In this document: positions 12,701-56,367 of the stretch, in pieces
Position numbering within the stretch: the first letter of the stretch is position 1
Layout of the letters: every line of letters starts with the position of its first letter
Assembly (NCBI RefSeq): GCF_020731355.1
Contig: NZ_JAJFZK010000005.1
Span: 124,001-188,000, forward strand
Origin: Bacillus sp. REN16
Lineage (GTDB): Bacteria > Bacillota > Bacilli > Bacillales > Bacillaceae_L
Length of the DNA stretch: 64,000 nt
Direction: 5' to 3'
Notes under the pieces: generated by a model
The model's input: the letters and a program-made list of their open reading frames with translations, nothing else
Database searches by the model: none
Told to the model about the DNA's origin: nothing
Translations under genes and position numbers: made by a program

Positions 12701-12813
12701 GGTGGGTTATGCAAAGCTTAGCATAACCCACCTTATGCAAAGAAAGTAATTATGCAAAGTAATCGATAAAATCCTTATAAAAATCAATAATGTAATGTAA
12801 TTTTCTTTGCATA
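12701..12813. repeat. RIT left end: recombinase-type repeats
   Basis: TTATGCAAAG occurs at 12733-12742 and 12750-12759 (7-bp gap), with the inverted copy CTTTGCATAA at 12804-12813 after exactly 44 bp. Outside them, GGTGGGTTATGC (12701-12712) and GCATAACCCACC (12721-12732) form a perfect 12-bp inverted repeat. GCATAA-CCCACC-TTATGC (12721-12738) has the form of a tyrosine recombinase core with a 6-bp spacer. Confidence 0.8.
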
Positions 12814-12870
12814 ATATCCAAAGATGATAAAGAGTTTGATACTCAAAATATCATTTTTGGAGGAATGTTT

Positions 12871-15085: not shown

Positions 15086-16085
15086 TTTTGCGAAGTACCT
15101 TACAGAGTTTCTTTCCGTGTACCTTCCATCCCAGAGAAATGTAAGTAAGAATACAATTCAATCATACCGTGATACATTTAAACTTTTGATTAAGTACTGT
15201 CAGGAAATAAAAAGCATTCCAGCAGAAAGAATTACACTAGATATTCTAACAAGCGGGCTGCTTACTGGTTTTCTAGAATGGTTGGAAACGGTTAGAAAGT
15301 GCAGCATTTCAACTAGAAATCAGAGGCTTTCAGCGATTCATTCCTTTTTCCGGTATGTTCAGGCCGAAGAACCTTCCGGTCTATTCCATTTTCAAAAGGT
15401 AATCGCAATCCCTACCAAAAAGGCAAGAAAAACAGTGGTAGAGCATCTGACACCGGAGGCTATGGAACTACTTCTGAAACAGCCCGACAGGGGCTGCTTT
15501 AAAGGACGACGTAATCTTACATTGATGAGTGTTCTATATGATACAGGTGCCAGGGTGCAGGAACTTATTGATATTAAAGTAAGTGATGTAATATTACAAA
15601 ATCCAGCGGTTATTATATTAACTGGAAAAGGTAACAAGGTAAGACGTGTTCCTCTCCTAAAAAACACAGTATCTTTATTAGAACGCTACATTGTCGAGAA
15701 CAAACTGGATAAACCATGGAAAAATGAATATCCTCTTTTTACAAACCATCAGAAAAACAAGTTAACTAAAGAAGGGGTTGCCTACATTATTTCCAAATAT
15801 GTTGAATTATCAAGGAAGACTTCAACTATTGTACCTTCGAAGGTGAAACCTCATATGTTTCGTCACTCGAAGGCAATGCATTTATTACAAGCAGGGGTAA
15901 ATCTTATATACATTCGGGATTTTCTTGGCCATGTCGATTTAAAAACTACCGAAATCTATGCGAGAGCAGATACAGAAGCGAAAAGGAAGGCTGTCGAAAA
16001 TGTGTATCCAGATTTAATTGATGGCAATCTTCCCGACTGGAGTAAGGATCAGGCACTTATTACTTGGCTTTCTGAATTAAAGTAG
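15072..16085 (+). CDS. Tyrosine recombinase, third of the RIT trio
   Basis: 337 residues, XerC/D-like in layout. Catalytic motifs YDTGARVQELIDI (Arg), HMFRHSKAMHLL (HxxR), FLGHVDLKTTEIYARAD (His and Tyr). It overlaps the previous gene by 14 bases. The frame also has GTG at 15063, but the ATG at 15072 is better placed after GGTAGGTG. All three recombinases keep the R-H-R-H-Y residues, so the element may still be active. Confidence 0.87.
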   Translation: MKPTDFAKYLTEFLSVYLPSQRNVSKNTIQSYRDTFKLLIKYCQEIKSIPAERITLDILTSGLLTGFLEWLETVRKCSISTRNQRLSAIHSFFRYVQAEEPSGLFHFQKVIAIPTKKARKTVVEHLTPEAMELLLKQPDRGCFKGRRNLTLMSVLYDTGARVQELIDIKVSDVILQNPAVIILTGKGNKVRRVPLLKNTVSLLERYIVENKLDKPWKNEYPLFTNHQKNKLTKEGVAYIISKYVELSRKTSTIVPSKVKPHMFRHSKAMHLLQAGVNLIYIRDFLGHVDLKTTEIYARADTEAKRKAVENVYPDLIDGNLPDWSKDQALITWLSELK

Positions 16086-16093
16086 CTATGAAG

Positions 16094-16180
16094 TTATGCA
16101 AAGTAAATGGAGTAAAAGCCTTTATATTTCGGGCTTTAGAACGTTTTCTTTGCATAATATTTTACTTTGCATAAGGTGGG
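16094..16180. repeat. RIT right end: mirror of the left end
   Basis: TTATGCAAAG at 16094-16103, then 44 bp, CTTTGCATAA at 16148-16157, 7 bp, and CTTTGCATAA at 16165-16174. The spacing is identical to the left end. The junction GCATAA-GGTGGG follows, with the spacer in the opposite sense to the inner left core. Confidence 0.8.
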
Positions 16181-16868
16181 GTTATCAGTCCCCTTCTTGC
16201 GAACGTATATTTGTACCCGTTAGATGAACTTATGACAGAGAGAGGGCATCGCATTACAAGATATGCGGATGACTTCGTCATATGTTGTAAGTCGCAAAAA
16301 GGCGCAGAACGTGTACTTAAGTCGATTACCCGTTTTCTAGAACAAAATCTTGGATTAATCGTCCATCCTGAAAAGACGAGAATTGTAAACAATCTAGAGA
16401 AACGGTTTGTTTTTCTTGGGTACGAATTTAAACAAGCCTTTTGGGTTAAGCCATCAGAAAAGTCAATTATGAAGTTTAAGGATAAAGTTAAGGAAATAAC
16501 AAAACGTAATCAAACCGTAAACATAGCACGATTGATTAAAGATAAACTAAATCCATATCTTCGGGGATGGGGAAACTATTTCGGACATGGGCATACAAAG
16601 TCATTGTTTAGTGAGTTTGATGGATGGATTCGAAGAAGGTTAAGGGCAGTTCAATTAAGAAGCTGGCGGAAAATCAGGAAATTGCATAGGGAATTACGCA
16701 GAAGAAAGTGGAAAGGGGAACTTCCTCGGTTGCGCATGTATGCATGGAGAAGTTCAAAATGCACGCCAGTAAACACTGCACTTCCAAACAAATGGTTTAA
16801 GGAGCTAGGTCTTGTTTCTTTAGTGGATATTTACAATGAACATCATCCCCAACGGGGATAACATGGAG

Positions 16869-16935
16869 GAGCCGTATGCGATGACCCGCACGTACGGATC
16901 TGTGAGAGGCGCATGAATAATTCATGCGCCTACTC
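16869..16935 (+). ncRNA. Group II intron domains V and VI
   Basis: Domain V: GAGCCGTATGCG ... CGCACGTACGGATC with the usual bulge. Domain VI: GGCGCATGAA and TTCATGCGCC with a short TAA loop, then CTACTCTAT. The base of the branch site was not resolved by eye. Confidence 0.75.
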
Positions 16936-16962
16936 TATTTTCTGAATGAATCTAGGTTCCAT

Positions 16963-34675: not shown

Positions 34676-34790
34676 CGTTCTTAATCAGTTAGGTGTAGGA
34701 AGTTTTTTCCTTGTAGGATAGACTCATACCTATTATAAATATATACGATTGAGTTGCTTAGTTTGTGTCGTTTTTTGCATATAATTAAGA

Positions 34791-34827
34791 AAGGGTCCAA
34801 AAAGATTATAATCTTTTTTGGACCCTT
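34791..34827. terminator. Long hairpin ending the riboswitch-controlled gene
   Basis: GGGTCCAAAAAGATTAT and ATAATCTTTTTTGGACCC pair almost perfectly (one extra A-T). It lies just after the stop codon of the 43-residue ORF on the minus strand and can terminate in that direction. Confidence 0.7.
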
Positions 34828-34835
34828 CAATCATA

Positions 34836-34967
34836 TTACATACCATTTGCAAGTAAAGTCGTAGCTGCGCTAATTAATACGGCGAGAATAGGGAGAGAAA
34901 CATATAATAGGATTTTATTTCTCTTTCTTTTTCTTTCCATTTCCTCAGGTGTTACCCATGTACTCAA
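34836..34967 (-). CDS. 43-residue membrane protein under riboswitch control
   Basis: A short ORF starting with TTG at 34967, nine bases after GAGGAGG. The product has an acidic/basic N-terminus (STWVTPEEMERKRKRNK) and one membrane helix (ILLYVSLPILAVLISAATTL), ending LANGM. A topology with the basic N-terminus inside is expected. No family recognised. It sits alone between a c-di-GMP-type riboswitch and a strong terminator, which argues that it is a real gene and not noise. Confidence 0.65.
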   Translation of the reverse strand: MSTWVTPEEMERKRKRNKILLYVSLPILAVLISAATTLLANGM

Positions 34968-34984
34968 TTTTCTTTTCCTCCTCG

Positions 34985-35066
34985 TCTTCGGTAGCTGGCT
35001 GGCTTAGTCGGTAGGACGGTAGCCCCTTTAGCTTTGCGTCTTCCACTTTTCAGTGGTTTTGCTAGT
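34985..35066 (-). ncRNA. Cyclic di-GMP-I (GEMM-I) riboswitch
   Basis: On the minus strand: CCACT-GAAA-AGTGG (a hairpin with the GNRA tetraloop), AAGACGCAAAGCTAAAGGGG (the signature GACGCAAAGC core), a second stem, then AGCCAGCTACCGAAG. The last element matches the conserved 3' GCCGG-GUUGCCGAA strand, and TAGC/GCTA close the base stem. These are the landmarks of the c-di-GMP-I aptamer. Its end lies only three bases from the GGAGG of the 43-residue ORF, with no separate terminator between them, so control of translation initiation is likely. Confidence 0.85.
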
Positions 35067-35309
35067 ATCGAACGAATTTAACAAATCAATATTATTATCG
35101 TCACATTTTGTCGAAATGTTAATAGGTAAATAGCACTATTGTATTTCCAGTTAATAGAATTATTGATTTTCACATAATAGTCAATCGGAATATCGAGGAA
35201 AGACTTTTTATAAAAATGGACAGTAAATAATCGAAAAGTCACTAAATATACTATAAAATGTATAATATAGTAGAAAAAAATTAAATTGGAAAAAAGAAGG
35301 TGAAAATAT
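35067..35309. promoter_or_regulatory. Divergent promoter region for riboswitch transcript and PBP gene
   Basis: For the PBP gene, TGTATAAT at 35259-35266 is a good extended -10 box followed by ATAG. The same TGTATAATATAGTA block precedes the next gene at 37435. A leftward promoter must lie between about 35080 and 35130; TAATAT is present but the -35 box is uncertain. Confidence 0.5.
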
Positions 35310-37327
35310 TTGAAACGATACATATGGTTGATATTAATTATTGCACTAAGTATTGTTTTGCTAACAGGATGCAAGAAAGACCCTCTACCTGAAGAACGTT
35401 TTGAAACATTTATTCAAGATTGGGAAAAGCAGGATTTTCAAAAAGTATATGACCAATTTTCCTTAGACGTAAAAGAAAATATTCAAAAAGATGAATTCGA
35501 AAATCGTTTTATGAAAATTTATAAAGATATTGGTGTTGACAAACTGAAAATCAGTTTTAAAGCTCCAGATGAGGAAATCGAACCTAATGACAAAGGAGAG
35601 GTTGTTTTCCCATATCAACTTTCAATGGAAACGATTGCAGGCAAAATTGAATTTAAAGAACAAGTGACGCTTGTTTTAGAAGAAATAGATGACGAAAAAA
35701 ATGGGCAATCAAATGGCAGCCATCAATGTTCTTTCCTAACATGGAGGAAGGGGATGGCATTGGAGTTTCCATATCCTCTCCTACTCGAGGTGAAATTACT
35801 GACAGAAACGGCGTTCTGCTGGCAGAAAATGGCCTTGTATATGAAATTGGTTTGGTTCCGCAGGACCTAGGTGAAAATAAGGGAACCATTATTACCGCTG
35901 TTGCTGAAATGTTAAAGCTAACACCTGAGTCTATCGAAAAGAACCTAAATGCTTCTTGGGTTAAACCTGATTATTTCGTACCAATAAAAAGGCTCTCTTT
36001 ACAAGAACAGGACCTAGCAACACAAGTAACGCAACTAAATGGTGTTTTATCGAAAAAGGTAGAATCCCGTGTTTACCCATTTAAGGAGGCAACCGCCCAT
36101 TTGATTGGGTATATTGGAACAGTAACTGCAGAGGATCTAAAAAAGCTTGAAGGAAAAGGCTATTCTGCAAATGATGTTGTAGGAAAAAAAGGTCTTGAAA
36201 TGGTACTTGAAGACCGTTTAAGAGGGGAAAAAGGTGCTAAGGTTTTTATTAAGAAAGCTAATGACGCTGGAGAAGTTACGCTTGCTGAAAAACGTGCTAT
36301 TGACGGTGAAACAGTAAAATTGGCCATCGATATCGATGTTCAGCTTACTGCGTTTGATCAACTTAGAGGTAATGCCGGGGCCGCAGCTGCCATCCACCCG
36401 TTAACAGGTGAGACACTTGCACTTGTCAGTAGCCCGTCCTTTGATCCGAACACTTTCGTACTTGGAATTTCAACTGGGGAATGGAATCGATTAAATGAAG
36501 ACCCACTCAAGCCATTACTGAACCGTTTCGGAGCAACCTATGCACCTGGCTCAACCTTTAAACCAATTACAGCTGGAATTGCACTAGAAAATGGAGTCAT
36601 TACATCTGAGACAACGGTAGATGTAGCTGGTAAGCAGTGGCAAAAGGATAGCTCGTGGGGAGGCTATTCGATAACTAGGGTCACCGATCCTGGGAAACCT
36701 GTGAATTTAAAGGATGCCTTCGTGTACTCTGACAATATTTATTTTGCTCAAGCGGCACTAGGAATTGGCGGAGATCGATTCGAATCCGAATTATCGAAAT
36801 ATGGATTCGGTGAATCATTTCCATTTGAATATCCATTGTATGAATCGAAAATTTCAAACGAGGGTTTGAACAAAGAGATTTTAGTAGCTGACACAGGCTA
36901 TGGACAAGGACAACTTGAAATGAGCCCTGTGCACCTAGCCTTTTCTTATACGCCATTATTAAACTCAGGTAAACTAATAAAACCAAAACTTATCCTTGAT
37001 GGTTCGGAAACAGAGGTTTGGAAGGAAAATGTCATTTCTCCAGAGAATGCTCAAATCATTCTAAATGACCTCATTCAAGTTTTCGAAGATCCAAATGGCA
37101 CAGCACATGATGCAAAAATAGAAGGTTTACAACTAGCTGGAAAAACAGGAACAGCTGAACTTAAAACAAGTAAGGATGAAGATGGAAAAGAAAATGGATT
37201 ATTTGTTGCTATGAATACAGAGAATCCTCGACTATTAATATCGATGTTAATTGAAGATGTAAAAAACGGTAGCCATGAAGTTACACCGAAAGTGAAATCG
37301 ATAATGGAATCAATACTAAAAAAATAA
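35310..37327 (+). pseudogene. pbpC: PbpC/MecA-type class B penicillin-binding protein, frameshifted in an A7 run
   Basis: Transpeptidase of wall synthesis. The first part (35310-35870 frame) has lipobox LLTGCKKD and the MecA N-terminal NTF2-like domain. The second frame, usable from about 35693, continues with WAIKWQPSMFFPNMEEGD, the dimerisation domain and a complete transpeptidase domain: PGSTFKP (active Ser), YSDN and AGKTGTAE. One base is missing in the A run at 35695-35701 (seven A; eight would join the frames). Joined length is about 670 residues, like B. subtilis PbpC. The run A-AAA-AAT also fits a -1 slippery heptamer in frame, so slippage could still yield full-length protein. Otherwise this is a pseudogene or a sequencing error. 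Start TTG at 35310 after GAAGGTG. Confidence 0.82.
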
Positions 37328-38490: not shown

Positions 38491-38811
38491 GTGGGCAAAA
38501 AAACTGTATATACAAAAGAGATTAAATGGGCGGTAGTAAGAGATAAGCTTGAAGGAAAATTAACAACACGGGAAATTATGAACAAATACAAAATCAAAAA
38601 TAAAACTCAAATTGAAACTTGGATGAGATGGTACAAGAATGGAGAAATGTATCGATTTGATCAGCCAATTGGTAAACAATATACATTTGGGCATGGGCCC
38701 GATTCTTTAAGTAAGGACGAGCGAATAAGTAATCAACTAACTCACCTAAAAATGGAGAATGAAATTCTAAAAAAGTATATGGCGATGAGAAAGGAGTCGA
38801 TAAAGGGCTAG
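38491..38811 (+). CDS. IS3-family transposase OrfA
   Basis: 106 residues with a helix-turn-helix (LEGKLTTREIMNKYKIKNKT) and a C-terminal leucine-zipper-like helix (LTHLKMENEILKKYMAM). Start GTG at 38491 after GGAGGTG. At 38769-38775 the in-frame heptamer A-AAA-AAG is the classical -1 frameshift site that makes the OrfAB transposase in this family. Confidence 0.88.
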   Translation: MGKKTVYTKEIKWAVVRDKLEGKLTTREIMNKYKIKNKTQIETWMRWYKNGEMYRFDQPIGKQYTFGHGPDSLSKDERISNQLTHLKMENEILKKYMAMRKESIKG

Positions 38812-38855
38812 TAGTACAATTGGTTGAACAATTTCGTGAAAAATATACCGTTACT

Positions 38856-40089
38856 CACTAGTGTTGCGTAAATAGTGTCATAATTTTTAATTACCTTTCT
38901 AAAGGCGGCTCCTGTCCATTTGGAAATTTATTTACAATTAGACCTGTGCAACGACAACAATTTGTTGATTAAGGGATGGCTTTTCCTTCAATTTTGCGAA
39001 GCCAGACATGTGCTGGTTTCCACAATGCTGCCCTTAAATAACGGCTAATTTGCAAGGTTTTCCGCTTACTTTTTGTTTCGAGTTGTACCAGAACATGAAG
39101 ACAAAAAACAATAAGTGCGATAAACACTTGATTTTGAATCGCCCATTCACTTTGACCGTATAATTTCTTGATATTGAGATGTTGTTTAATCCATTTAAAA
39201 AACAGCTCAATTGCCCATCGTGATTTATACATTTCCGATATTTCTTCGGCGCTTAAGTCAAAACGATTTGTGATTAAATGAAGTTCATTACCTTTTGAAT
39301 CTATTACTTTTAGAAGTCGAAAATAGTTTTCAGCTCGGTTTTGAGTTGTACCAATCAACACCATTTGAGCCGACAAAACAGATGAATCCTTGGGTAGTTT
39401 AAAATCATAAACCTCCCGTACGACTGCGTTTTTTCGTAGCCTAGAAAGAAAAAAGTAGCCTTCATCGGTCATGCGATCAAAACGCTCGTAGTCTAGATAA
39501 CCTCGGTCAAACACATACATGCATTCTTTATCGTCAACCATAATCTCAAGTTGACCACGATCGTGTTCGCTTGCCGTTGTCATCACGGCTTTTTCGGGAT
39601 AGGATTCTCCCTTTTCCATAAATACAAGGCGTAAGTGCAACTTTACGCCTGCCTTAGTTTTGCGGAACTTCGCCCATTTATGATTGGTCAAATTTAGTGG
39701 CAAAGTACTTGAATCAATAATTTTTAACGGCATGACAAGTTTTGTGTAGTGTGTTTTGGCGTGAATTTGTCCGACTAAATCAAGGAAAAGTCTTTGAAAC
39801 AAATCTGGATTTAGACCATTTAAACGGCGCGAGAGCTGAGAAATGCTTATAGAATCAAGGTCGATTTCCTTTTGAAGATGATCATCAAAAAGGCAATCAC
39901 TTACGAAAACCATTGTCCAAATGAAGTTTTTCGTGTAATCTTGTCCATGAGATTGGTCCTTTTTTAGTGGATTTGGACGGGTTACCACCTGACTTATCCA
40001 TTATAAAGGACTTTTTCTATGCATAAAATAATAAAAGTGAACATTTCGAGTATTTTTAATAGTGGAATTAAATTAATGCAACACTAGTG
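38856..40089 (-). mobile_element. IS4-family insertion sequence, complete
   Basis: 1234 bp. Perfect 12-bp terminal inverted repeats CACTAGTGTTGC / GCAACACTAGTG, and a 9-bp target duplication ACCGTTACT (38847-38855 and 40090-40098) inside the IS3 orfB. One transposase gene on the minus strand. Confidence 0.93.
38969..39988 (-). CDS. IS4-family transposase
   Basis: 339 residues with a DDE domain split by a beta insertion: MPLKIIDSSTLPLNL (first Asp), YVFDRGYLDYERFD (second Asp) and YKSRWAIELFFKWIKQHLNI (Y-(2)-R-(3)-E-(6)-K signature, catalytic Glu). It starts a little shorter than many IS4 proteins (about 370), so the start may be further upstream or the group is short. No strong ribosome binding site noted. 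Intact ends suggest it can still move. Confidence 0.88.
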   Translation of the reverse strand: MVTRPNPLKKDQSHGQDYTKNFIWTMVFVSDCLFDDHLQKEIDLDSISISQLSRRLNGLNPDLFQRLFLDLVGQIHAKTHYTKLVMPLKIIDSSTLPLNLTNHKWAKFRKTKAGVKLHLRLVFMEKGESYPEKAVMTTASEHDRGQLEIMVDDKECMYVFDRGYLDYERFDRMTDEGYFFLSRLRKNAVVREVYDFKLPKDSSVLSAQMVLIGTTQNRAENYFRLLKVIDSKGNELHLITNRFDLSAEEISEMYKSRWAIELFFKWIKQHLNIKKLYGQSEWAIQNQVFIALIVFCLHVLVQLETKSKRKTLQISRYLRAALWKPAHVWLRKIEGKAIP

Positions 40090-40917
40090 ACCGTTACTTC
40101 CATTTTAAAAGTTTTAGGGATTCCACGTGCTAGCTATTATCGTTGGACTAAAGGGTTTGGTGAATATCGCAATGAACATGAAGATTTAATTATTGAAATC
40201 TGTAAGGCTACTAAATATAGAAATGGTCATAGGAAAATTAGAGCTATTCTAAAGCGAGAACATCATATTCATCTTAATAGGAACACAGTTCAAAACATTA
40301 TGCAGAAGCATCATTTGCAGTGTAAGGTGAAACCAAAACGCAAGTGGAAATCGCAGGGAGAAAGTGAAGTCATTGTGCCTAATATTCTTAATCGTGATTT
40401 TAGTGCTAGTAAACCAAATGAGAAGTGGGTAACGGACATTACGTATATCCAGTATGGCAGCGAAACATTATATCTGTCTACGATTATGGATTTGTATAAT
40501 AATGAAATTGTAGCTTATAAGATTTATAATCATCAACAAACGACATTAGTGATTGATACACTGCAGGATGCTTTGGATAAACGCAATCAGCCAGAAGGAG
40601 TTATTATACACTCCGATCAGGGGAGTGTGTATACTTCGTATACCTTTCAAAATTATTTGAAGGAACATCATTTAGTAGGTAGTATGTCCAGACGAGGGAA
40701 CTGTTGGGACAATGCGGTGATTGAATCATTTCATTCAAATTTAAAGACAGAGGAATTCCAATATTGTAAGTTTAATACCCTATCTAATTTAGAAGTTATT
40801 TCTAGAATAGATGGGTACATTCATCATTACAACGAGGATAGGATTCAAGCAAAATTAGGCTACTTAACTCCAATAGAATTTGGATTAAAGGCAGCTTAAA
40901 GGATTCGGGGTTATCCA

Positions 40918-43500: not shown

Positions 43501-45375
43501 ATGTCATACCGTACTAGGATTTTGAATTTGGTCGTTATAGACTCAATAATTGTTCTTTTTTCAATATATATGTCACATTTTTTCTTAAACCCGTTTGCCG
43601 CATATTATGAAGATAATCGGGTGTTGATCAGTTCGGTTATTTTGCTGGTTAGCCATCATGTTTTTTCATATGTGTTTGGTCTTTACCGAAAAGTATGGAG
43701 GTATGCAAGTGCCGAGGAATTAGTGGGAATCGTTTTGGTTGTAAGCTCATCTATTCTTATAACAGCCATTTCTCAAAAAATTATGTTTAATAACATATAT
43801 GCAAGAGGTTTATTCCTTACCTACCTTCTCCATCTGTTTTTACTGGGTGGCGTACGTTTTTGGTGGCGTTTTACTTCAACTGTACTATTTGCTTTTAAGA
43901 CGAAAGAAATCCGATCGATTAAGCATAAACGTACATTAATATTAGGTGCAGGATCTACTGGGAGAATGCTTGTACGTCAGATAAAAGAACATCCAGGAAC
44001 AGAATTAAAACCAATCGCCTTTTTAGATGATGATTCATCTTTGCAGAATCTTAATATGGCAGGGATTCCTGTTGTTGGGAAAGTTGATGATATTGTAAAA
44101 GTTATTGCAAAGTTTCGTATCGAACATGTTGTTATTGCAATTCCATCATTACCCAAGTCCCGTTTAAATGAAATTGTTGCAAAGGCAAAAAAGGTTGTCG
44201 ACAATGTACAGATATTACCGATGATTGGTGATCTGGCCGTAGGCAGGGTTTCAGTTAGTCAAATTAGGGATATTTCTATCGAAGATTTACTTGGTAGGGA
44301 TACTATTAAATTAGATACTGAAGGAATTGCTGAAAAAATAAGAAATCAAACAGTATTAATAACAGGTGCTGGCGGTTCGATTGGATCTGAACTGTGTAGG
44401 CAGATTTGTTTGTTTCAACCAAGTAAATTAGTTTTATTAGGTCATGGGGAAAATAGTATTTATAATATTGAAATGGAATTACTAAATAGATATAAGGGGC
44501 AAATTGAATTAGTTACAGAAATTGCGGAAATACAAGATGCGCGGAAAATGATTGATGTGATGGTTACGAATAAACCAAAATTTGTTTTCCATGCCGCTGC
44601 CCACAAACATGTTCCGTTAATGGAGAGAAATCCAGAAGAAGCAGTAAAAAATAATATATATGGAACGAGAAATGTTGCTGAAGCAGCATCAATTGCCGGA
44701 GTTGACACTTTTGTTTTAGTTTCTACGGATAAAGCAGTTAACCCTACAAGTGTAATGGGAGCCTCAAAGCGTATTGCAGAACTTACAATTCAAAATCTTG
44801 ATCGTAAAAGTGATACACGTTTTGTAGCAGTACGATTTGGAAATGTATTGGGAAGCAGAGGGAGCGTTGTTCCTTTATTTAAAAAGCAAATTGCTAAAGG
44901 CGGTCCACTGACGGTAACTCATCCTGATATGACTAGGTATTTTATGACAATTCCAGAAGCAGCTAGACTTGTTATTCAGGCAGGAGCCTTAGCGAGAGGT
45001 GGAGAAATTTTTGTCTTAGATATGGGTGAACCAGTTAAAATTGTTGATTTGGCTAAAAATCTAATTAAATTATCTGGATTTACAGAAGACGAAATCAAAA
45101 TTGAATATACTGGCCTTCGTCCAGGAGAAAAAATGTATGAAGAAATATTAAATAAAGATGAGATCCATCCTATTCAAGTTTTTCCAAAAATTTATATCGG
45201 AAAAGCTACAGAGGAAAACGCAGAGGATCTTATTCACCAAGTTGAAAGTGTATTGCACGATAAGGATAAGCTTCGCGAAACTTTACTTAAACTAACAAAC
45301 AAAAAGAAGGATACTAATGATAAAAAAAAAGAGCAAGAGCAAGGTAAAGTTGCTGATGAAATGATTACAGTTTGA
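43501..45375 (+). CDS. UDP-sugar 4,6-dehydratase, EpsC/CapD/FlaA1-like (membrane-bound)
   Basis: 624 residues. Four membrane helices (about 10-115), a first Rossmann-like domain (TLILGAGSTGRMLVRQIKEH), then the SDR catalytic domain: VLITGAGGSIGSELCRQI for NAD(P), FHAAAHKHVPLME, and VSTDKAVNPTSVMGASKR, where Met replaces the usual Tyr of YxxxK as in this family. Known: converts UDP-GlcNAc to the 4-keto-6-deoxy sugar, the first step to bacillosamine-type or FucNAc-type sugars. First gene of the operon; GGGAGGG precedes the ATG. The Lys/Glu-rich tail is unstructured. Confidence 0.88.
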   Translation: MSYRTRILNLVVIDSIIVLFSIYMSHFFLNPFAAYYEDNRVLISSVILLVSHHVFSYVFGLYRKVWRYASAEELVGIVLVVSSSILITAISQKIMFNNIYARGLFLTYLLHLFLLGGVRFWWRFTSTVLFAFKTKEIRSIKHKRTLILGAGSTGRMLVRQIKEHPGTELKPIAFLDDDSSLQNLNMAGIPVVGKVDDIVKVIAKFRIEHVVIAIPSLPKSRLNEIVAKAKKVVDNVQILPMIGDLAVGRVSVSQIRDISIEDLLGRDTIKLDTEGIAEKIRNQTVLITGAGGSIGSELCRQICLFQPSKLVLLGHGENSIYNIEMELLNRYKGQIELVTEIAEIQDARKMIDVMVTNKPKFVFHAAAHKHVPLMERNPEEAVKNNIYGTRNVAEAASIAGVDTFVLVSTDKAVNPTSVMGASKRIAELTIQNLDRKSDTRFVAVRFGNVLGSRGSVVPLFKKQIAKGGPLTVTHPDMTRYFMTIPEAARLVIQAGALARGGEIFVLDMGEPVKIVDLAKNLIKLSGFTEDEIKIEYTGLRPGEKMYEEILNKDEIHPIQVFPKIYIGKATEENAEDLIHQVESVLHDKDKLRETLLKLTNKKKDTNDKKKEQEQGKVADEMITV

Positions 45376-45440
45376 ACCCCTTCTTTTTTGATTGTTAAGA
45401 ATAAATTATGCAACCAATTTTCGAAAGTTGAGGACGTAAA

Positions 45441-46145
45441 ATGATTACAAAGGGCAATAATGTAGTTATTGGAAAGAATGTATGTTTGGGTGAAAATGTA
45501 ACAATTGGCCACAATGTTGTTATTTATGATGGGGTTGAAATCGGTAGCTATTGTATTATCCAAGACAATGCGGTGATTGGAAAACAACCTACCAGGGCTA
45601 AAAATTCAATTCTCCCTGAAGTAACGGCATTACCTCCCACTAAAATAGGTAATGGAGTGACAATCGGAACCTCAGCAATAATTTATGCAAATGCTGAAAT
45701 TTCAGATGATGCTTTTATAGCCGATTTAGCAACTGTTAGAGAAAGAGTTACAATAGGTGAAAAAACAATCGTTGGACGTGGAGTTGCAGTTGAAAATGAT
45801 TGTAAAGTGGGTGCTTATTGTAAGCTTGAAACAAATTCTTATATAACTGCCTATTCAGATATTGAGGATTATGTTTTTGTTGCTCCTGGTGTTGTTACAA
45901 CAAACGACAATTACATGGCAAGATCTAAGGAACGTTATAAACATTTTAAGGGTATCACGATTAAGAAAGGTGGAAGAATCGGTGCAAATGCGACAATTCT
46001 ACCTGGTAAGGTTATTAACCAAGACGGAGCAGTAGCTGCTGGTTCAGTTGTCACTAAAGATGTTAACAACGGAGAAATTGTAGCAGGGGTTCCAGCCAAG
46101 AAATTAAAACTGGTTTCTGATGACCAATTATTAAAAAATCAGTAA
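45441..46145 (+). CDS. Left-handed beta-helix sugar N-acetyltransferase
   Basis: 234 residues made largely of hexapeptide repeats (VVIGKNVCLGENVTIGHNVV, IGNGVTIGTSAIIYANAEIS), then VFVAPGVVTTNDNYMARSKE and a closing IVAGVPAKKLK. It lacks the N-terminal Rossmann-type domain of PglD/EpsM and is closer in layout to WbpD-type enzymes, which acetylate the 3-amino group of UDP-2-acetamido-3-amino sugars with acetyl-CoA. Either role (4-amino or 3-amino) fits the operon. TTGAGGACG precedes the ATG. Confidence 0.78.
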   Translation: MITKGNNVVIGKNVCLGENVTIGHNVVIYDGVEIGSYCIIQDNAVIGKQPTRAKNSILPEVTALPPTKIGNGVTIGTSAIIYANAEISDDAFIADLATVRERVTIGEKTIVGRGVAVENDCKVGAYCKLETNSYITAYSDIEDYVFVAPGVVTTNDNYMARSKERYKHFKGITIKKGGRIGANATILPGKVINQDGAVAAGSVVTKDVNNGEIVAGVPAKKLKLVSDDQLLKNQ

Positions 46146-46164
46146 ATGATGGAGTCGTTTCTTT

Positions 46165-47394
46165 ATGAATATCTTACTTATTAATCATTATGCAGGATCC
46201 AATCAGCATGGTATGGAATACAGACCATTTTATCTTAGTAGAGAATGGGTTAAAATGGGTCATAATGTTACAATTATAGCCGGTTCCTACTCCCATGTTC
46301 GAACAATACAGCCAGAAATAAAGGGAAAGTGGACAACAGAAATAATTGATGGGATTCGTTATATTTGGGTAGAGACACCTCAATATGAGGGTAATGGCGT
46401 AAAAAGGGTTGTAAATATCTTTTCTTTTGTAAAAGACATATATGCCAATTCAGATAGGCTAGCAAAAGAAATCTCTCCGGATATTGTAATTGCATCTTCA
46501 ACATACCCGTTAGATATTTATCCTGCATCAAAAATTGCTAAAAAGGCAAATGCAAAACTTGTTTTCGAAGTTCATGATTTGTGGCCTTTGACACCAAAGG
46601 AATTAGGAAATATGTCTAAGTACCATCCTTTTATTATTACCATGCAAAAAGGGGAAAATGATGCGTATAAAAAAGCAGATAGGGTTGTTTCATTGTTACC
46701 AAAAGCAAAAGAACATATGATTAGTCACGGCATGGACCCTAAAAAATTCGAATTCTTGCCGAATGGTATAGTAACTGAGGATTGGGAAAATGCAAATGAA
46801 CAAATTCCGAATGAACATATTGAACTTATCGCTAAACTTAAAAATGAAGGTAATTTCTTAATAGGCTATGCAGGAGGACAAGGGATTTCAAATGCACTCG
46901 AATATTTACTCGATGTTGCAAAAATCATGCAAGATAAACCCATTTCGTTTGTCCTTGTTGGAAAAGGCGCTGAACGTGATGCACTTATTCAAAAATCAAA
47001 AGACATGGGATTAACAAATATTCATTTCCTTCCGGTTATTAATAAAAATGCGATTCCCGATTTCCTTTCTCGGATGGATGCATTATACATAGGATGGAGA
47101 AGAAGCTCCCTGTATCGGTTTGGTGTTAGTCCTAATAAACTTTTGGATTATATGATGGCTGCAAAACCCATTATCCACAGTATTGAAGCAGGTAATGATC
47201 TAGTTAAGGAAGCCAACTGTGGTATTTCTGTTGCGCCAGAGGATCCTGTTTTGATTGCTGAGGCTATTAATCAGATTTTTGAATTAACTGAAGAGGAAAG
47301 AAAAAAATTAGGTGGAAATGGAAGAGAATTTGTCATGGAAAACCATGATTATAAAGTTTTAGCAGATCGATTTATAAAAATCATGAATCAATAA
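46165..47394 (+). CDS. Glycosyltransferase, GT4 (WbuB-like)
   Basis: 409 residues, GT-B fold. N-terminal INHYAGSNQHGMEYRPFYL and the GHNVTIIAGSYSH segment resemble the WbuB group, which transfers FucNAc-type amino sugars. The nucleotide-sugar half has IGYAGGQGISNALEYLLD, FVLVGKGAERDALI and SPNKLLDYMMAAKPII. Cytoplasmic or membrane-associated; acts on a lipid-linked acceptor. Confidence 0.82.
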   Translation: MNILLINHYAGSNQHGMEYRPFYLSREWVKMGHNVTIIAGSYSHVRTIQPEIKGKWTTEIIDGIRYIWVETPQYEGNGVKRVVNIFSFVKDIYANSDRLAKEISPDIVIASSTYPLDIYPASKIAKKANAKLVFEVHDLWPLTPKELGNMSKYHPFIITMQKGENDAYKKADRVVSLLPKAKEHMISHGMDPKKFEFLPNGIVTEDWENANEQIPNEHIELIAKLKNEGNFLIGYAGGQGISNALEYLLDVAKIMQDKPISFVLVGKGAERDALIQKSKDMGLTNIHFLPVINKNAIPDFLSRMDALYIGWRRSSLYRFGVSPNKLLDYMMAAKPIIHSIEAGNDLVKEANCGISVAPEDPVLIAEAINQIFELTEEERKKLGGNGREFVMENHDYKVLADRFIKIMNQ

Positions 47395-47421
47395 TACAAC
47401 ATAGTTAGAAGGGTGAATAAA

Positions 47422-48573
47422 ATGGGAACAATTCCATATGCACTTCCAATGATTGCGGATGAAGAAATTAAGGAAGTCATTGATACAATTAAATCAAATT
47501 GGCTAAGCAAAGGACCGAAAACGGTTGAATTTGAAGGGAAAATCAAAGAATATGTAAACGCGAATTTCGGGATTGGGTTAAATTCTTGTACTGCGGGTCT
47601 ACACCTTGCACAATTAGCAGCAGGAATTGGGCCTGGTGACGAAGTTATAACAACTCCCTATACGTTTGTAGCAAGTGCCAACACAATCATCCATACTGGA
47701 GCTACGCCGGTATTTGTTGATATCGACCCTGTAACGATGAACATCGATCCTGCTTTAATTGAAGAAAAAATTACTCCACGTACAAAGGCCATTATTCCAG
47801 TGCATTTCGCAGGATATCCATGCGATATGGATCCTATAATGGAGATTGCTCGTAAGCATAATCTAATTGTTATCGAAGATGCTGCCCATGCGATTTATAC
47901 TCAATACAAAGGCAAAATGATTGGTAGTATTGGTGATTTTACTTGCTTCAGCTTTTATGCCACTAAAAACCTGGTAACTGGTGAAGGTGGACTTGTAACC
48001 ACTCATAGTGAAGAGTGGGCTGATAAAGTCCGCATTATGAGTCTACATGGTATGAGTAAAAACGCATGGAATCGATATGGTGATAAAGGTACCTGGTATT
48101 ATGAGGTTGACTATCCGGGCTATAAGTACAATATGACTGATATTCAAGCTTCATTTGGATTGGTTCAACTTTCTAAGTTAGAAAAAATGCAGCAAATTCG
48201 CGAAAAGTACGCTCAAATATATAATGAACAGTTAGCAAATATAGAAGGAATCACACTGCCACATCACGATGATATTAACAGACATGCTTGGCATCTGTAT
48301 GTGATACGAGTGGATGAAAGCCAGTTCACAATTGACCGTGGAGAGTTTATTGAAAAGCTAAAAGAAAAGGGAATTGGCACTAGCGTCCACTTCATTCCAG
48401 TTCCAATGCATCCGTATTACAAAGGGCTTGGATATAAGATTGAAGATTATCCTAATGCATTAAGTGCATACAATGGAGCCATTTCCTTACCTCTGTATCC
48501 ACGAATGTCAGAGGAAGAAGTAACACAAGTGATTGAGGCTGTTCGTGATGTTGCAACAAGCTATAGAAAATAG
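47422..48573 (+). CDS. DegT/DnrJ/EryC1 aminotransferase (EpsN/PglE-like)
   Basis: 383-residue PLP enzyme that adds an amino group to a keto-sugar nucleotide, most likely the product of the EpsC-like dehydratase. Seen: GLNSCTAGLHLAQLAAGI, TPYTFVASANTIIHTGA, VIEDAAHAIYTQYKG and the PLP lysine in CFSFYATKNLVTGEGG. GTG at 47413 overlaps the GAAGGG site, so ATG at 47422 is chosen. Directly followed by the phosphoglycosyl transferase. Confidence 0.88.
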   Translation: MGTIPYALPMIADEEIKEVIDTIKSNWLSKGPKTVEFEGKIKEYVNANFGIGLNSCTAGLHLAQLAAGIGPGDEVITTPYTFVASANTIIHTGATPVFVDIDPVTMNIDPALIEEKITPRTKAIIPVHFAGYPCDMDPIMEIARKHNLIVIEDAAHAIYTQYKGKMIGSIGDFTCFSFYATKNLVTGEGGLVTTHSEEWADKVRIMSLHGMSKNAWNRYGDKGTWYYEVDYPGYKYNMTDIQASFGLVQLSKLEKMQQIREKYAQIYNEQLANIEGITLPHHDDINRHAWHLYVIRVDESQFTIDRGEFIEKLKEKGIGTSVHFIPVPMHPYYKGLGYKIEDYPNALSAYNGAISLPLYPRMSEEEVTQVIEAVRDVATSYRK

Positions 48574-48582
48574 GTGACAGAC

Positions 48583-49224
48583 ATGGAAGGGAAAGTCAAA
48601 GGATTATACAATCAAAATCACTCTTTTAATGATGCTTTTAAAAGGTTTTTTGATATTGTTGTATCTCTAATTGGTCTCATCATCCTATCACCTTTACTAC
48701 TAATTATTGCAATTCTTATAAAAGTTGATTCAAAGGGGCCTGTTTTTTTTAAGCAAGTACGGGTTGGTCAGTACGAGAAGGAATTTAAAATTCTAAAGTT
48801 TAGAACAATGGTGGTTGACGCTGAAAAGCTAGGGAAACAAATTACAGTCGGTATGGATCGTAGAATAACAAAAGTCGGGTATTTTTTGCGTAAATATAAG
48901 CTTGATGAATTTCCTCAATTAATTAATGTTTTGATTGGTGACATGAGTTTGGTTGGACCGCGACCTGAAGTTCCGAGGTATACTAAATATTATAATACAG
49001 AACAAAAAGCGATTTTTAACATTAGACCAGGGATAACCGATTATGCATCCATTAAGTACAGTGATGAAAGTGAACTTCTTGGTAAGGCTGAAAATCCAGA
49101 AAAAACCTATATTGAAGAAATCATGGTTGATAAATTACGATATAATTTAGAATACCTTCGTAACCGTTCTGTGATTGAGGATATTTCTATCATTTATAAA
49201 ACTGCACTGAAGATCCTTAAATGA
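48583..49224 (+). CDS. Phosphoglycosyl transferase (EpsL/PglC-like)
   Basis: 213 residues. One N-terminal re-entrant membrane helix (FFDIVVSLIGLIILSPLLL), VFFKQVRVGQYEKEFKILKF, RTMVVDAEK, KLDEFPQLINVLIGDMSLVG and PRPEVPRY. Moves a sugar-1-phosphate onto undecaprenyl phosphate, starting the repeat unit; by analogy with PglC/EpsL, a diNAcBac-type sugar. ATG at 48583 after AGGTGAC; the in-frame GTG at 48574 touches the previous stop codon. A terminator follows. Confidence 0.9.
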   Translation: MEGKVKGLYNQNHSFNDAFKRFFDIVVSLIGLIILSPLLLIIAILIKVDSKGPVFFKQVRVGQYEKEFKILKFRTMVVDAEKLGKQITVGMDRRITKVGYFLRKYKLDEFPQLINVLIGDMSLVGPRPEVPRYTKYYNTEQKAIFNIRPGITDYASIKYSDESELLGKAENPEKTYIEEIMVDKLRYNLEYLRNRSVIEDISIIYKTALKILK

Positions 49225-49227
49225 CGG

Positions 49228-49255
49228 AAAGCGTAGTATGTTGCTACGCTTTTTG
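49228..49255 (+). terminator. Terminator splitting the polysaccharide locus
   Basis: AAAGCGTAG pairs with CTACGCTTT around TATGTTG, followed by a T run. Separates the first transcription unit from the next promoter at 49306. Confidence 0.8.
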
Positions 49256-49305
49256 TTCGTCATATAATGGAGCGTTATTACTTTGTGTGCGAAATTTGTC
49301 TTTTC

Positions 49306-49334
49306 TTGACAAATAACAATCGTGTTGTTATTGT
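49306..49334 (+). promoter_or_regulatory. Second promoter of the polysaccharide locus with an operator-like palindrome
   Basis: TTGACA (49306-49311), a 17-bp spacer and TATTGT (49329-49334). AATAACAA (49312-49319) and TTGTTATT (49325-49332) are a perfect inverted repeat filling the space between the boxes, an ideal repressor site. Confidence 0.65.
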
Positions 49335-49390
49335 AATATGTTGAACAATAGTGCATTTTGTGACTTTATTGTAAAGGGACTGATTCCAAA

Positions 49391-50500
49391 TTGACTAAGA
49401 AAATAATTGTTTATTACCCTTTTCAATTGAAAACCGGTGATAGTGGTTCTGGAGTTAGACCTACCCAAATGCTTAAGGCATTTCATGAACTAGCGAATGA
49501 GCAGGGGTTTGAATGTTTAGAGGTAATTGGTAATGCGGAAGAAAGAAAGGAAAGACTTAGGAAGATCTATAAAGAAGTCAATCCAAATGATATTTTGTAT
49601 TGCTATATGGAAAACCAAACAATACCAATTTGGTTAACTGACCCGGATCATATACCAAGGCATCCAACTGTGGATCATGGCTTTTTTAAATATCTTAAAA
49701 AGAATAAGATTCCACTAGGAATTTTTTATAGGGATATCTATTGGAAATTTAAAGATCTTTATAAGGTAAAACCTATTTTAAAAACTATCATGATTCGATT
49801 ATTTGAAATAGAGTTATTTTTATACAAAAAGTATGCAAAGAAAATTTTTTTACCTAGCTTGGAAATGAATAATTATGTGAAGATTCCTGAAAATCAAGTC
49901 TATCCGTCACCCCCTGGTGGTATTGATCGAACAGAAATTACTGATAAACAGGGTACAGAAAAGGTACGTGCTATTTATGTTGGTGGGATTGATCCAAGGT
50001 ATGGAGTATATGAGGTGCTTGAAGCCTTTAAACAGTTAAATAAAGATACTACATATATTGAACTTTCATTTGTCTGTCGTGAAAAAGAATTTAATACGTT
50101 TAAAGGTTTCCTAGAGCCATATTTAGATGAAGATTGGTTAAATATTCATCATGCTCATGGGGAGGCATTGCTTCCTATTTATAAAGAAGCTGATTTTGGA
50201 ATTGTTACCCTAAAAAGGGGAACATATAATGATTTTGCAGTTCCCGTAAAATTATTCGAATACCTATCCTTTGGTTTACCAGTTTTAGCTACCGATTGTA
50301 CGGCCTTACAAAAAATAGTCGAACAGGATAAAATCGGGTTAATTGTAAAGGATAATAGTAATTCTATACATGGTGGATTACAGGAAATGCTTGATTCTAC
50401 AAAAAGAAATATATTGAAGCAAAATTCGGTTTCTGCACTAAAAGGAAAACATTTATGGCTTCAACGTGCGAAAGATATTCAAAATGAATTACTTTCTTAA
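49391..50500 (+). CDS. Glycosyltransferase, GT4-type
   Basis: 369 residues. N-terminal YYPFQLKTGDSGSGVRPTQM; the sugar-nucleotide half has RAIYVGGIDPRYGVYEVLEA and the FAVPVKLFEYLSFGLPVLAT segment typical of GT4. Start is TTG at 49391, about 11 bases after AAAGGGAC. First gene after the internal promoter. Acceptor and donor unknown. Confidence 0.78.
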   Translation: MTKKIIVYYPFQLKTGDSGSGVRPTQMLKAFHELANEQGFECLEVIGNAEERKERLRKIYKEVNPNDILYCYMENQTIPIWLTDPDHIPRHPTVDHGFFKYLKKNKIPLGIFYRDIYWKFKDLYKVKPILKTIMIRLFEIELFLYKKYAKKIFLPSLEMNNYVKIPENQVYPSPPGGIDRTEITDKQGTEKVRAIYVGGIDPRYGVYEVLEAFKQLNKDTTYIELSFVCREKEFNTFKGFLEPYLDEDWLNIHHAHGEALLPIYKEADFGIVTLKRGTYNDFAVPVKLFEYLSFGLPVLATDCTALQKIVEQDKIGLIVKDNSNSIHGGLQEMLDSTKRNILKQNSVSALKGKHLWLQRAKDIQNELLS

Positions 50501-50589
50501 ATGTCTTTAAATAGTAAAAAAATCAGTTATCATTTTATGCTAATATAAAGATTGTCATTCAAAACAATTTATATGAGGAGAGTCTAAAT

Positions 50590-51699
50590 ATGAAAGTACC
50601 TATGTTAGACCTATCTGAACAATACCAATCACTTAAGGATGAAGTTATTAAAGCTTTAGATGATGTTATGAGTTCTTCAAGTTTCATTCTTGGGGATAAC
50701 GTTAAGAAACTTGAGCACGATGTTGCAGCATTTTCACATGTTACTCATGGCGTAGGTGTTGCAAATGGTAGCGACGCATTACATATTTCACTACAAGCGT
50801 GTGGAGTGGGACCTGGTGATGAAGTCATCACAACGACATTCACATTCTTCGCAACAGCTGGAGCGATTGCTAGGGCAGGAGCAAGGCCTGTTTTTGTTGA
50901 CATCGACCCAATTACCTTTAATATTGATCCAAAGGAAATAGAAAAAGTTATTACAAACAAAACAAAAGCGATTATTCCTGTTCATTTATATGGACAAGCA
51001 GCAGATATGGATCCAGTTCTAGAGATTGCTAAGAAGCATAATTTATACGTTGTAGATGACGCTGCTCAAGCAATTGGTGCAGAATATAAAGGTAGAAAAG
51101 TCGGTGAACTTGGTGACACGACATGCTTTAGTTTTTTCCCTACAAAGAATTTAGGGGCATATGGTGACGGAGGAATGATTGTCACTAATGATGAAGATTT
51201 AGCAGAAAAAATGAGCATTATCCGTGTCCACGGAAGTAAGCCAAAATACTATCATCATGTTTTAGGTTACAACAGTCGATTAGATGAATTACAAGCAGCT
51301 GTTTTAAATATTAAGTTCCCTCATCTTTCTGAATGGAGTGAACTTCGTCGTGAAAAAGCAGCAACCTATACAAACTTATTAAATGAGAAGCTTTCTGATC
51401 ATGTAATTACGCCAAAAGAAGAGAAAGACAGATATCATGTGTTCCATCAATATACAATTCGGGTTGAGAAAAGGGACGAACTCCAACAATTCTTAAAAGA
51501 AAATGGAGTGGCTTCAATGGTATATTATCCTGTACCATTACATTTGCAACCAGTTTTTGCAGAGTTGGGCTATAAGGAAGGGGATTTCCCACTTGCTGAG
51601 AAAGCTGCAAAAGAAGCCTTGTCTCTCCCAATGTTCCCTGAATTAAAAAAGGAACAACAAGAATATATCATTAATGTTATAGAAAAGTTTTTCGCATAA
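50590..51699 (+). CDS. DegT aminotransferase, WbpE-like
   Basis: 369-residue PLP enzyme. MKVPMLDLSEQYQSLKDEV, GVANGSDALHISLQACGVGP, DDAAQAIGAEYKGRKVG and the PLP lysine in CFSFFPTKNLGAYGDGGM. Closest in style to WbpE/WlbC, which aminates the 3-keto group of UDP-2-acetamido-glucuronate. A WbpA-like dehydrogenase lies two genes on and a WbpD-like acetyltransferase upstream, but no WbpB-like 3-dehydrogenase is seen in the window. Confidence 0.85.
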   Translation: MKVPMLDLSEQYQSLKDEVIKALDDVMSSSSFILGDNVKKLEHDVAAFSHVTHGVGVANGSDALHISLQACGVGPGDEVITTTFTFFATAGAIARAGARPVFVDIDPITFNIDPKEIEKVITNKTKAIIPVHLYGQAADMDPVLEIAKKHNLYVVDDAAQAIGAEYKGRKVGELGDTTCFSFFPTKNLGAYGDGGMIVTNDEDLAEKMSIIRVHGSKPKYYHHVLGYNSRLDELQAAVLNIKFPHLSEWSELRREKAATYTNLLNEKLSDHVITPKEEKDRYHVFHQYTIRVEKRDELQQFLKENGVASMVYYPVPLHLQPVFAELGYKEGDFPLAEKAAKEALSLPMFPELKKEQQEYIINVIEKFFA

Positions 51700-51708
51700 G
51701 GAGAAATC

Positions 51709-52476
51709 ATGTCAGAACAAAATCAATATATTCTTTATGGCTATTTACAGTTTTTGTGGAAAAAGAAATGGCTGATCATACTTGCTACAGTTATTGGAAT
51801 GGGGCTAGGTTATGCTTATACTTTAACGCAGCAGACAAAATATACTTCAAAGGCTATTGTATTTACTGGAATGATTGAAAATAGAGATTTATCAAAGCCT
51901 GAAATTATTCAAAACGATTATAAACATTTATTAACTGAAATTGCACCCAGTGATTTTAGTGTAGCGATACCTATGGATAACCAAATAAATTTAACACTTG
52001 TCGGGTCAGACAAGTCAATTGTTGAATCTGATCTGACAAAAATTGCGAATCAAATTGTAAAGGATCTAACGGTAAAGTATGATGTGCAACGTCAGGCGAT
52101 GGAAGACTATGTTAATGCTTTATCTGAACAAGTTGATGCCACCAATTATTTGTTAAATAATATACTTAAAGAATCGTCTAGTGGAGTAAGTAAGGACGTT
52201 ATGGAACAGTTAAACTCAGATAGTCAATTGGTTTATTTAGAAGGAAAATTCTATAATGCAAACACAAAAGAACTACTCTATTATGCTGGTGAAGAATTAG
52301 CAAAAATGGTAAAACACAATCCTAGAATATCAGGTGATGATGTTAATACTAGCGAAAATAAACCAAGTTCTATTAAATTTATTATTCTTGGTGGTGCAGC
52401 GTTTTTTCAACTTATGTTAATTATTGTCATCTTGTGGAAATATATAATTAACGCTCGTCAATTTAAGGAGATGTAA
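51709..52476 (+). CDS. Wzz-like chain-length determinant
   Basis: 255 residues: a membrane helix near residues 20-38 (WLIILATVIGMGLGYAYTL), an extracellular part with helices, and a C-terminal helix (FIILGGAAFFQLMLIIVILW). The Wzz domain regulates how long the polymer grows. No separate tyrosine kinase is seen next to it. AAGGAG precedes the ATG. Confidence 0.82.
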   Translation: MSEQNQYILYGYLQFLWKKKWLIILATVIGMGLGYAYTLTQQTKYTSKAIVFTGMIENRDLSKPEIIQNDYKHLLTEIAPSDFSVAIPMDNQINLTLVGSDKSIVESDLTKIANQIVKDLTVKYDVQRQAMEDYVNALSEQVDATNYLLNNILKESSSGVSKDVMEQLNSDSQLVYLEGKFYNANTKELLYYAGEELAKMVKHNPRISGDDVNTSENKPSSIKFIILGGAAFFQLMLIIVILWKYIINARQFKEM

Positions 52477-52478
52477 GC

Positions 52479-53792
52479 ATGAGTACATTTGAAAATTTAT
52501 TAAACAAAATCGAATCTAAAGAAGCCGTAATTGGTGTTGTTGGTTTAGGCTACGTAGGTCTGCCATTAGCGGTTGAAAAAGCTAAAGCAGGCTATAAGGT
52601 AATTGGATTTGATGTACAGCAATCTAGAGTTGACCAGGTTAATCAAGGAATTAACTATATTGGTGATGTTGTTGATGAAGAACTGTCAGAAATGATCAAA
52701 GAAGGCAGACTTGAAGCAACAACTGATTATGAAAAAATCAAAGAAGTTGACACAGTTGCTATCTGTGTACCTACTCCTTTAGATCAACATATGCAACCGG
52801 ACACTTCATATGTAGAAAGTTCTTCAAAGGAAATTGCTAAATACGTACACGAAGGAATGCTAGTTGTACTTGAATCTACTACCTATCCTGGAACAACAGA
52901 GGAAATCGTTAAACCAGCACTTGAAGCAAGTGGTTTAGTAGTTGGAGAAGATATCTTTGTTGCGTATTCACCTGAACGTGTAGATCCAGGGAATAAGCAT
53001 TATAACACGAAAAATACACCAAAGGTAATTGGTGGGATTACAGAAAATTGTACAAAGGTTGCAGCAGCTCTTTATCGTGCGGTTCTTGAAGGAGATGTAC
53101 ATGAGGTTTCAAGTCCAGCCGTTGCTGAAATGGAAAAAATCTTTGAAAACACATTTAGACATATCAACATTGCGTTAGCAAATGAAATGGCTATCTTATG
53201 TAAAAGAATGGGCATTGACGTTTGGGAAGTTATTGATGCAGCAAAAACAAAGCCATACGGATTTATGGCATTTTATCCGGGACCAGGTCTAGGTGGTCAC
53301 TGTATCCCAATTGACCCATTTTATCTAACATGGAAAGCCAGAGAGTATAACTATCATACTCGTCTTATCGAGCTTGCTGGCGAAATTAACAACAGCATGC
53401 CTGAATATGTTGTACAAAAGAGCTTAGAAATCTTAAATGAATATGGAAAACCCCTAAAAGGATCAAAAATAGCTGTTTTAGGTGTTGCATATAAGAAGGA
53501 TATAGATGATTATCGTGAATCTCCTTCCCTTCCGATTATTACAATGTTGCGTGAAAAAGGGGCAGAAGTACTTGTAGTGGATCCATATATCAGTAGCTAT
53601 AAATGTGGTAAGAATTTTGCAGAAACACTGCCTTTAACAAAAGAACTACTTAACCAGAGTGAAATGACCCTTATTTTAACGAACCACAGTGATTTTGATT
53701 ATGACATGATTGTGAAAGAAAGTAAGGTAATATTTGATACTCGTAATGCATTAAAAGAATTTGATAAAAACGAAAATTATTATAAGCTTTAA
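52479..53792 (+). CDS. UDP-N-acetylhexosamine 6-dehydrogenase (WbpA/WecC-like)
   Basis: 437 residues. NAD-binding GVVGLGYVGLPLAVEKAKAG, VAICVPTPLDQHMQPD, SPERVDPGNKHY, the catalytic cysteine in GPGLGGHCIPIDPFYL, and a terminal GVAYKKDIDDYRESP domain. Oxidises UDP-GlcNAc or UDP-ManNAc twice to the uronic acid. Two bases after the Wzz gene. Confidence 0.9.
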   Translation: MSTFENLLNKIESKEAVIGVVGLGYVGLPLAVEKAKAGYKVIGFDVQQSRVDQVNQGINYIGDVVDEELSEMIKEGRLEATTDYEKIKEVDTVAICVPTPLDQHMQPDTSYVESSSKEIAKYVHEGMLVVLESTTYPGTTEEIVKPALEASGLVVGEDIFVAYSPERVDPGNKHYNTKNTPKVIGGITENCTKVAAALYRAVLEGDVHEVSSPAVAEMEKIFENTFRHINIALANEMAILCKRMGIDVWEVIDAAKTKPYGFMAFYPGPGLGGHCIPIDPFYLTWKAREYNYHTRLIELAGEINNSMPEYVVQKSLEILNEYGKPLKGSKIAVLGVAYKKDIDDYRESPSLPIITMLREKGAEVLVVDPYISSYKCGKNFAETLPLTKELLNQSEMTLILTNHSDFDYDMIVKESKVIFDTRNALKEFDKNENYYKL

Positions 53793-53802
53793 TAATTTAG
53801 GG

Positions 53803-53848
53803 GAACTATAAATATAAATAGAGGTATTTATATTTATAGTTCTATTTT
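53803..53848 (+). terminator. Perfect 18-bp AT-rich hairpin
   Basis: GAACTATAAATATAAATA (53803-53820) and its exact reverse complement (53825-53842) flank GAGG, followed by TATTTTATTT. A terminator or attenuator within the operon. Confidence 0.7.
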
Positions 53849-53880
53849 ATTTCTACTATCTTTTTTATAAGAGGTATATT

Positions 53881-56366: not shown

Positions 56367-56367
56367 G

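Follow-up and report, generated by a model that had tools for sequence, protein, structure and literature searches.

A c-di-GMP-I riboswitch ahead of a conserved small membrane protein in Bacillus sp. REN16, with a possible role in the change from swimming to biofilm life

The locus analyzed here raises the question of what a c-di-GMP riboswitch would control when it stands in front of a single frame for a membrane protein of 43 residues; to our knowledge, few c-di-GMP outputs are known in Gram-positive bacteria. The window, that is, the whole stretch of 64,000 nucleotides from Bacillus sp. REN16 that was analyzed, carries on its minus strand a compact unit with the following features, listed from upstream to downstream:

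35095..35122, minus strand: candidate SigmaD-type promoter, TTAA, 16 nt and GACGATAA (10 of 12 consensus positions)
35107..35115, minus strand: TTCGACAAA, an exact match to the Spo0A box in the sequence, inside the promoter spacer
35072..35076, minus strand: TTCGT, possible lower P1 strand on the 5' flank, read from the sequence (folding support weak)
34987..35073, minus strand: c-di-GMP-I (GEMM-I) riboswitch aptamer, RF01051 match
34981..34985, minus strand: ACGAG, which overlaps the first bases of the Shine-Dalgarno sequence and may form the other lower P1 strand, read from the sequence (folding support weak)
34977..34982, minus strand: Shine-Dalgarno sequence AGGAGG, read from the sequence
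34836..34967, minus strand: 43-residue single-helix membrane protein with a TTG start (ORF list, homology and conservation)
34790..34828, minus strand: intrinsic terminator, a hairpin (-20.4 kcal/mol) and, after it, a T-rich run (energy computed on the own-genome copy of the locus, L009)

The proposal of an earlier note that this RNA is a c-di-GMP-I aptamer was checked against the RF01051 covariance model and was confirmed at the level of sequence: positions 35073-34987(-) matched the model over its full length (1-87 of 87) with 59.4 bits (gathering cut-off 35, E = 4.4e-9). As in other members of RF01051, the first stem is capped by GAAA, the GACGCAAA core is present and the element lies on the same strand as the gene, in a presumed 5' UTR. 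Based on the sequence and the alignment, the base that sets ligand specificity is a G, the one preceding C in TAGCAAAA; we take it to correspond to G20 in Vc2 numbering, a position presumably occupied by A in the cGAMP-binding variant. The interval first proposed for the unit (34836-35066) did contain a real unit, but it cut off the first seven bases of the aptamer and left the promoter and the terminator outside. The aptamer end had also been described as touching the ribosome binding site, whereas 4 nt separate it from the Shine-Dalgarno sequence, and the start codon of the ORF (34967-34836, minus strand) lies 19 nt past the aptamer end.

The genome contains eight c-di-GMP-I aptamers in all. 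On the same strand downstream of the others lie EAL-domain frames (two loci), a GGDEF protein, a SinR-like regulator (aptamer at L004, 1501-1590) and a Cache-domain protein, as would be expected of a c-di-GMP regulon; one further aptamer is followed about 400 nt on by a translation-factor GTPase on the same strand, and the only sizeable frame near that of L005 is an acyltransferase on the opposite strand. The SinR-like case resembles Bacillus methanolicus MGA3, for which four c-di-GMP riboswitches are described (PMC4342826), one preceding sinI and two preceding the genes of unknown function BMMGA3_15625 and BMMGA3_15380. In the Bacillus cereus group, according to the available portions of PMC11218506 and PMC4933901, the c-di-GMP riboswitches include Bc1, with a long platform and two terminators, and Bc2, which belongs to the 5' UTR of a gene for a collagen adhesion protein; no tiny membrane protein is mentioned for either in those portions. 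The riboswitch in the window differs from known RF01051 systems in its target, a small membrane protein that no family entry covers, and, with no terminator between aptamer and ORF, its platform seems to act on the Shine-Dalgarno sequence.

Homologues of the small ORF were found in 23 of 60 genomes (own genome counted), and a profile search of the order gave matches in 107/396 genomes and 42/135 genera, both of which are upper bounds, since 16 weaker listed matches, inside frames of 287-405 aa, look like noise; in a phylum-wide draw the family appeared in 3/398 genomes including its own, all three from the same order. The set examined comprised 106 entries at 104 loci (the own locus, 23 loci of relatives and 80 regions from the profile search) and is uneven, with 26 entries from one genus (f20/g23) and 14 from another. 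Conservation of the short ORF in relatives, which the earlier note proposed to look for, was borne out by these homologues and by pN/pS values within the genus of 0.15-0.46 (mean 0.27; 15 pairs from six sequences, that is, six of the eight genus entries, two more diverged, aptamer-less ones being left out). Judged by this conservation, the ORF is under purifying selection and is a real gene, and a sequence resembling a ribosome binding site precedes it in 102/106 entries.

The protein of the window contains a TPEE motif, a K/R-rich stretch and a hydrophobic helix at residues 19-37, and the same architecture ([FWY]xTPEE-type motif, K/R-rich stretch, one helix, 40-46 residues) extends across the order. 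TPEE itself is present in 90/106 entries and a looser form in 105/106, while T and the first E are invariant across 23 aligned members; at L028 the start is uncertain, and at the motif the frame parts from the one at L019, a close relative. All 106 entries have a hydrophobic 19-mer with more K/R before than after it, so the N-terminus is probably inside. When 23 members were scanned against Pfam, NCBIfam, PHROG and PDB, no family describing the protein was found, the stray matches being NF045849, pilin-like conjugal transfer (E = 0.0016, one member), ETRAMP (E = 0.0047, two members), phrog_15593 (E = 0.0075, one member) and, as the best in PDB, 'HeliScrew4' (E = 0.025). Nor was a description of the family found in the full-text literature, a scope that takes in few subscription papers and includes the available parts of PMC4342826 and PMC3766115. 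The earlier note's remark that automatic annotation may miss so short an ORF could be compared with one annotated record, which lists a distant homologue as a hypothetical protein.

Some members occur in settings of their own. A plasmid search with two family members as queries returned one Sutcliffiella plasmid record for the window protein and none for the other query. This homologue (45% identity; L212, 5995-6129, Sutcliffiella horikoshii) lies among TraM-like, ParA-like and T2SS/T4P/T4SS ATPase genes, a setting unlike that of the chromosomal loci, and what is seemingly the same place at L126 is without an aptamer. Genomes of f20/g23 (G319, G280, G259) mostly contain two to four matches to the small protein; in-frame stops interrupt some of these, and some of the paralogue pairs are about 650-700 bases apart.

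The pairing of aptamer and ORF recurs in relatives: 15 of the 23 relatives' loci have an aptamer directly upstream of the ORF (14 RF01051, one RF03167), and 63/106 entries (own included), representing 21/32 genera, have a c-di-GMP-I aptamer separated by 13-54 nt from the start codon. Among 13 loci from named strains, six, several of them apparently from the same genomes as the numbered loci, contain an aptamer according to a model built from our own alignment (Bacillus timonensis, two strains; Bacillus sinesaloumensis; Fredinandcohnia onubensis; Bacillus sp. HNG; Metabacillus lacus). Since RF01051 matches were found in 350/396 genomes, co-occurrence with the family at the genome level carries no information. 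An aptamer above the cut-off is absent from 43/106 entries (41/104 loci), including all entries of 11/32 genera, and c-di-GMP control is thus not essential to the family. At L109 (1910-1981), a decayed aptamer of 32.9 bits, below the cut-off, precedes a stop-free small ORF. The aptamer-less leaders of L135-L139, from one genus, share a block ATCAAG(C/T)AAAGGGAC...ATCAA upstream of the small ORF, which matched no family in a permissive Rfam search of the L136 and L139 leaders; it may represent a remnant, or else an RNA element that is so far unrecognised.

Transcription of the unit was approached through the region upstream of the aptamer or, in entries that lack it, upstream of the ORF. The SigmaD consensus of Bacillus subtilis is TAAA-N14-16-GCCGATAW. 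With this consensus and a threshold of our own choice, scores of at least 10/12 were obtained in 43/106 entries against 3.5% of 3254 A+T-rich windows from the same loci, in 15.5 of 32 when weighted by genus, and in similar measure with the aptamer (25/63) and without it (18/43); scores of 11/12 were reached in 24/106 entries against 0.68% of the background, and the remaining 63/106 scored below 10. The leader of the window scores 10 (its -35 element being TTAA) and the other seven aptamer leaders of the genome 7-8. A SigmaD (motility)-type promoter is thus over-represented upstream of the family units, a point absent from the earlier note. Matches to FliA were present in 396/396 genomes (383 over the cut-off), so that its co-occurrence with the family carries no information. 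An exact Spo0A box was found in 10/106 entries against 0.8% of background windows, the number of one-mismatch matches being raised by the resemblance of the SigmaD -10 element GTCGATA; the box in the promoter spacer of the window is a lead only.

At its other end, the unit of the window is closed by the terminator, in agreement with the description of the ORF as a lone product. Across the family that description applies in part, as a terminator-like hairpin follows the ORF in 69/106 entries (14/300 control windows) and none was found by the scan in the other 37.

The gene neighbourhood, likewise not considered before, is enriched in polysaccharide functions relative to controls. A polysaccharide-biosynthesis gene lies within about 1.5 kb at 45/104 loci (12/32 genera), against 1/40 random loci and 0/7 of the other aptamer loci of the own genome, and does so at 29/63 loci with the aptamer and 16/41 without; these counts are weighted heavily by one genus (g23, 26 entries) and depend on 14 query proteins picked post hoc, with the neighbours already known, some of these proteins coming from the test loci. 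The other 59/104 loci, among them that of the window, are without a query-set gene within this distance. In several genera, an EPS-type cluster (chain-length determinant, tyrosine kinase, phosphatase, GalU-like protein, sugar transferase, glycosyltransferases) begins just downstream of the unit at L155, L158 and L159, where the aptamer is present, and at L161, where it is absent; gene names in relatives' clusters derive from similarity and our own reading, and Pfam was run on the genes of the window. There, a polysaccharide cluster with Wzz, a flippase and a polymerase (Pfam) spans 43501-59643, about 8.5 kb from the unit.

As the aptamer ends 4 nt before the Shine-Dalgarno sequence and no terminator separates it from the ORF, control should be translational, and its sign was explored through the sequences flanking the aptamer. 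In the genus and some neighbours the flanks can pair with each other (TTCGT/ACGAG; CTCA/TGAG at L021 and L027; CGTTT/AAACG at L150), and by inspection these pairings reach or abut the Shine-Dalgarno sequence, so c-di-GMP would be an OFF signal. The bound state was mimicked by swapping the aptamer for a hairpin, and Shine-Dalgarno accessibility was computed from the partition function; leaders missing the anchor pattern were dropped (9/63 in the shuffled-flank test, 4/63 in the free-versus-bound test). Accessibility went from 0.55 free to 0.53 in the bound mimic in 37 short-gap leaders (lower in 22/37) and from 0.46 to 0.34 in 22 long-gap leaders (lower in 20/22). In the short-gap group, flank pairing exceeded the shuffled mean in 26/37 leaders, with at most 1/30 shuffles reaching it in 7/37, and accessibility in the bound mimic was under the shuffled mean in 25/32 (0.51 vs 0.59). 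For the leader of the window, accessibility fell from 0.60 free to 0.37 in the bound mimic, and its flank pairing is unremarkable (15/30 shuffles reach it). Long-gap leaders had a more open Shine-Dalgarno sequence with the true 5' flank than with shuffled ones (0.38 vs 0.21); inspection of the f20/g23 leaders attributes this to an extended P1 that sequesters an anti-Shine-Dalgarno sequence, which leans to ON. Minimum free energy folds of 20/63 leaders and the bound-mimic calculations settled neither ON nor OFF; for the leader of the window we lean just slightly towards OFF, because the sequences on either side of its aptamer can pair into a P1 helix that extends into the Shine-Dalgarno sequence.

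From the aptamer, the conserved ORF and their coupling, together with the promoter enrichment, the gene neighbourhood and the terminator, the following reading is put forward, with a probability of roughly 0.6: at the transition from motile to biofilm life, c-di-GMP gates translation of a small membrane protein that a motility promoter expresses. The unit would be monocistronic, its transcription probably driven by SigmaD, the sigma factor of motility genes, and the riboswitch, ending by the ribosome binding site, would let c-di-GMP control translation of this one product. The protein, with its N-terminus probably inside and one helix in the membrane, would probably use the conserved TPEE motif to contact a membrane partner in the polysaccharide or motility machinery. 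The motility-type promoter, the c-di-GMP control and the polysaccharide neighbours together point to the motile-to-biofilm switch, and a family so often encoded beside exopolysaccharide or cell-wall-polysaccharide genes probably acts there, where its product might restrain polysaccharide synthesis in swimming cells, aid it at the switch, or affect motility.

In a somewhat unlikely alternative, the protein assists motility or the flagellum as an accessory factor, acting for instance on the stator or on chemoreceptors, and the polysaccharide neighbours reflect incidental clustering of surface genes. The SigmaD-type promoters (at least 10/12) of aptamer-less entries and the 59 loci lacking a query-set neighbour speak for it, yet no flagellar gene was recognised by eye among the recurrent neighbour clusters, and polysaccharide genes are enriched over the controls. 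The position just upstream of the EPS-type cluster at L155, L158 and L159 would also suit a translated leader that couples the riboswitch to downstream transcription, the peptide itself being functionless. This is improbable: the mean pN/pS of 0.27 and the invariant T and first E of TPEE in the 23 aligned members, downstream genes that differ between clades, and the 69 terminator-like hairpins all argue for a functional product. Slightly more improbable still is a small membrane toxin or bacteriocin-like peptide held in check by c-di-GMP; its size, its single helix and the several paralogues of f20/g23 genomes, some with stops, are what such a peptide might show, but the family recurs near polysaccharide genes, conserves a motif before the helix rather than the hydrophobic helix alone, and has no immunity or antitoxin partner recognised in the neighbour clusters (frames of at least 70 aa collected).

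A bolder version can be suggested tentatively, at less than even odds: the order-wide family would be a dedicated c-di-GMP output, with SigmaD and the riboswitch forming a two-input gate on a protein that directly sets exopolysaccharide synthesis, or serves as a flagellar clutch. With its c-di-GMP riboswitch, its motility-type promoter and, at many loci, polysaccharide genes nearby, the conserved small protein, of a family unnamed in Pfam, NCBIfam, PHROG and PDB, offers a candidate, open to direct test, for the link that is missing between swimming and biofilm life.

Further observations concern the surroundings of the unit in the window. The divergent neighbour is a penicillin-binding protein in two overlapping frames, 35310-35870(+) and 35726-37327(+), which looks split, with a MecA_N-type domain in the first piece. 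Transposase-like frames, recognised by eye, and an integrase-core frame occupy 38491-40899, where they separate the polysaccharide cluster from the riboswitch unit, and pieces of a group II intron (RF02001 and RF00029) are found at 11499-16938(+).
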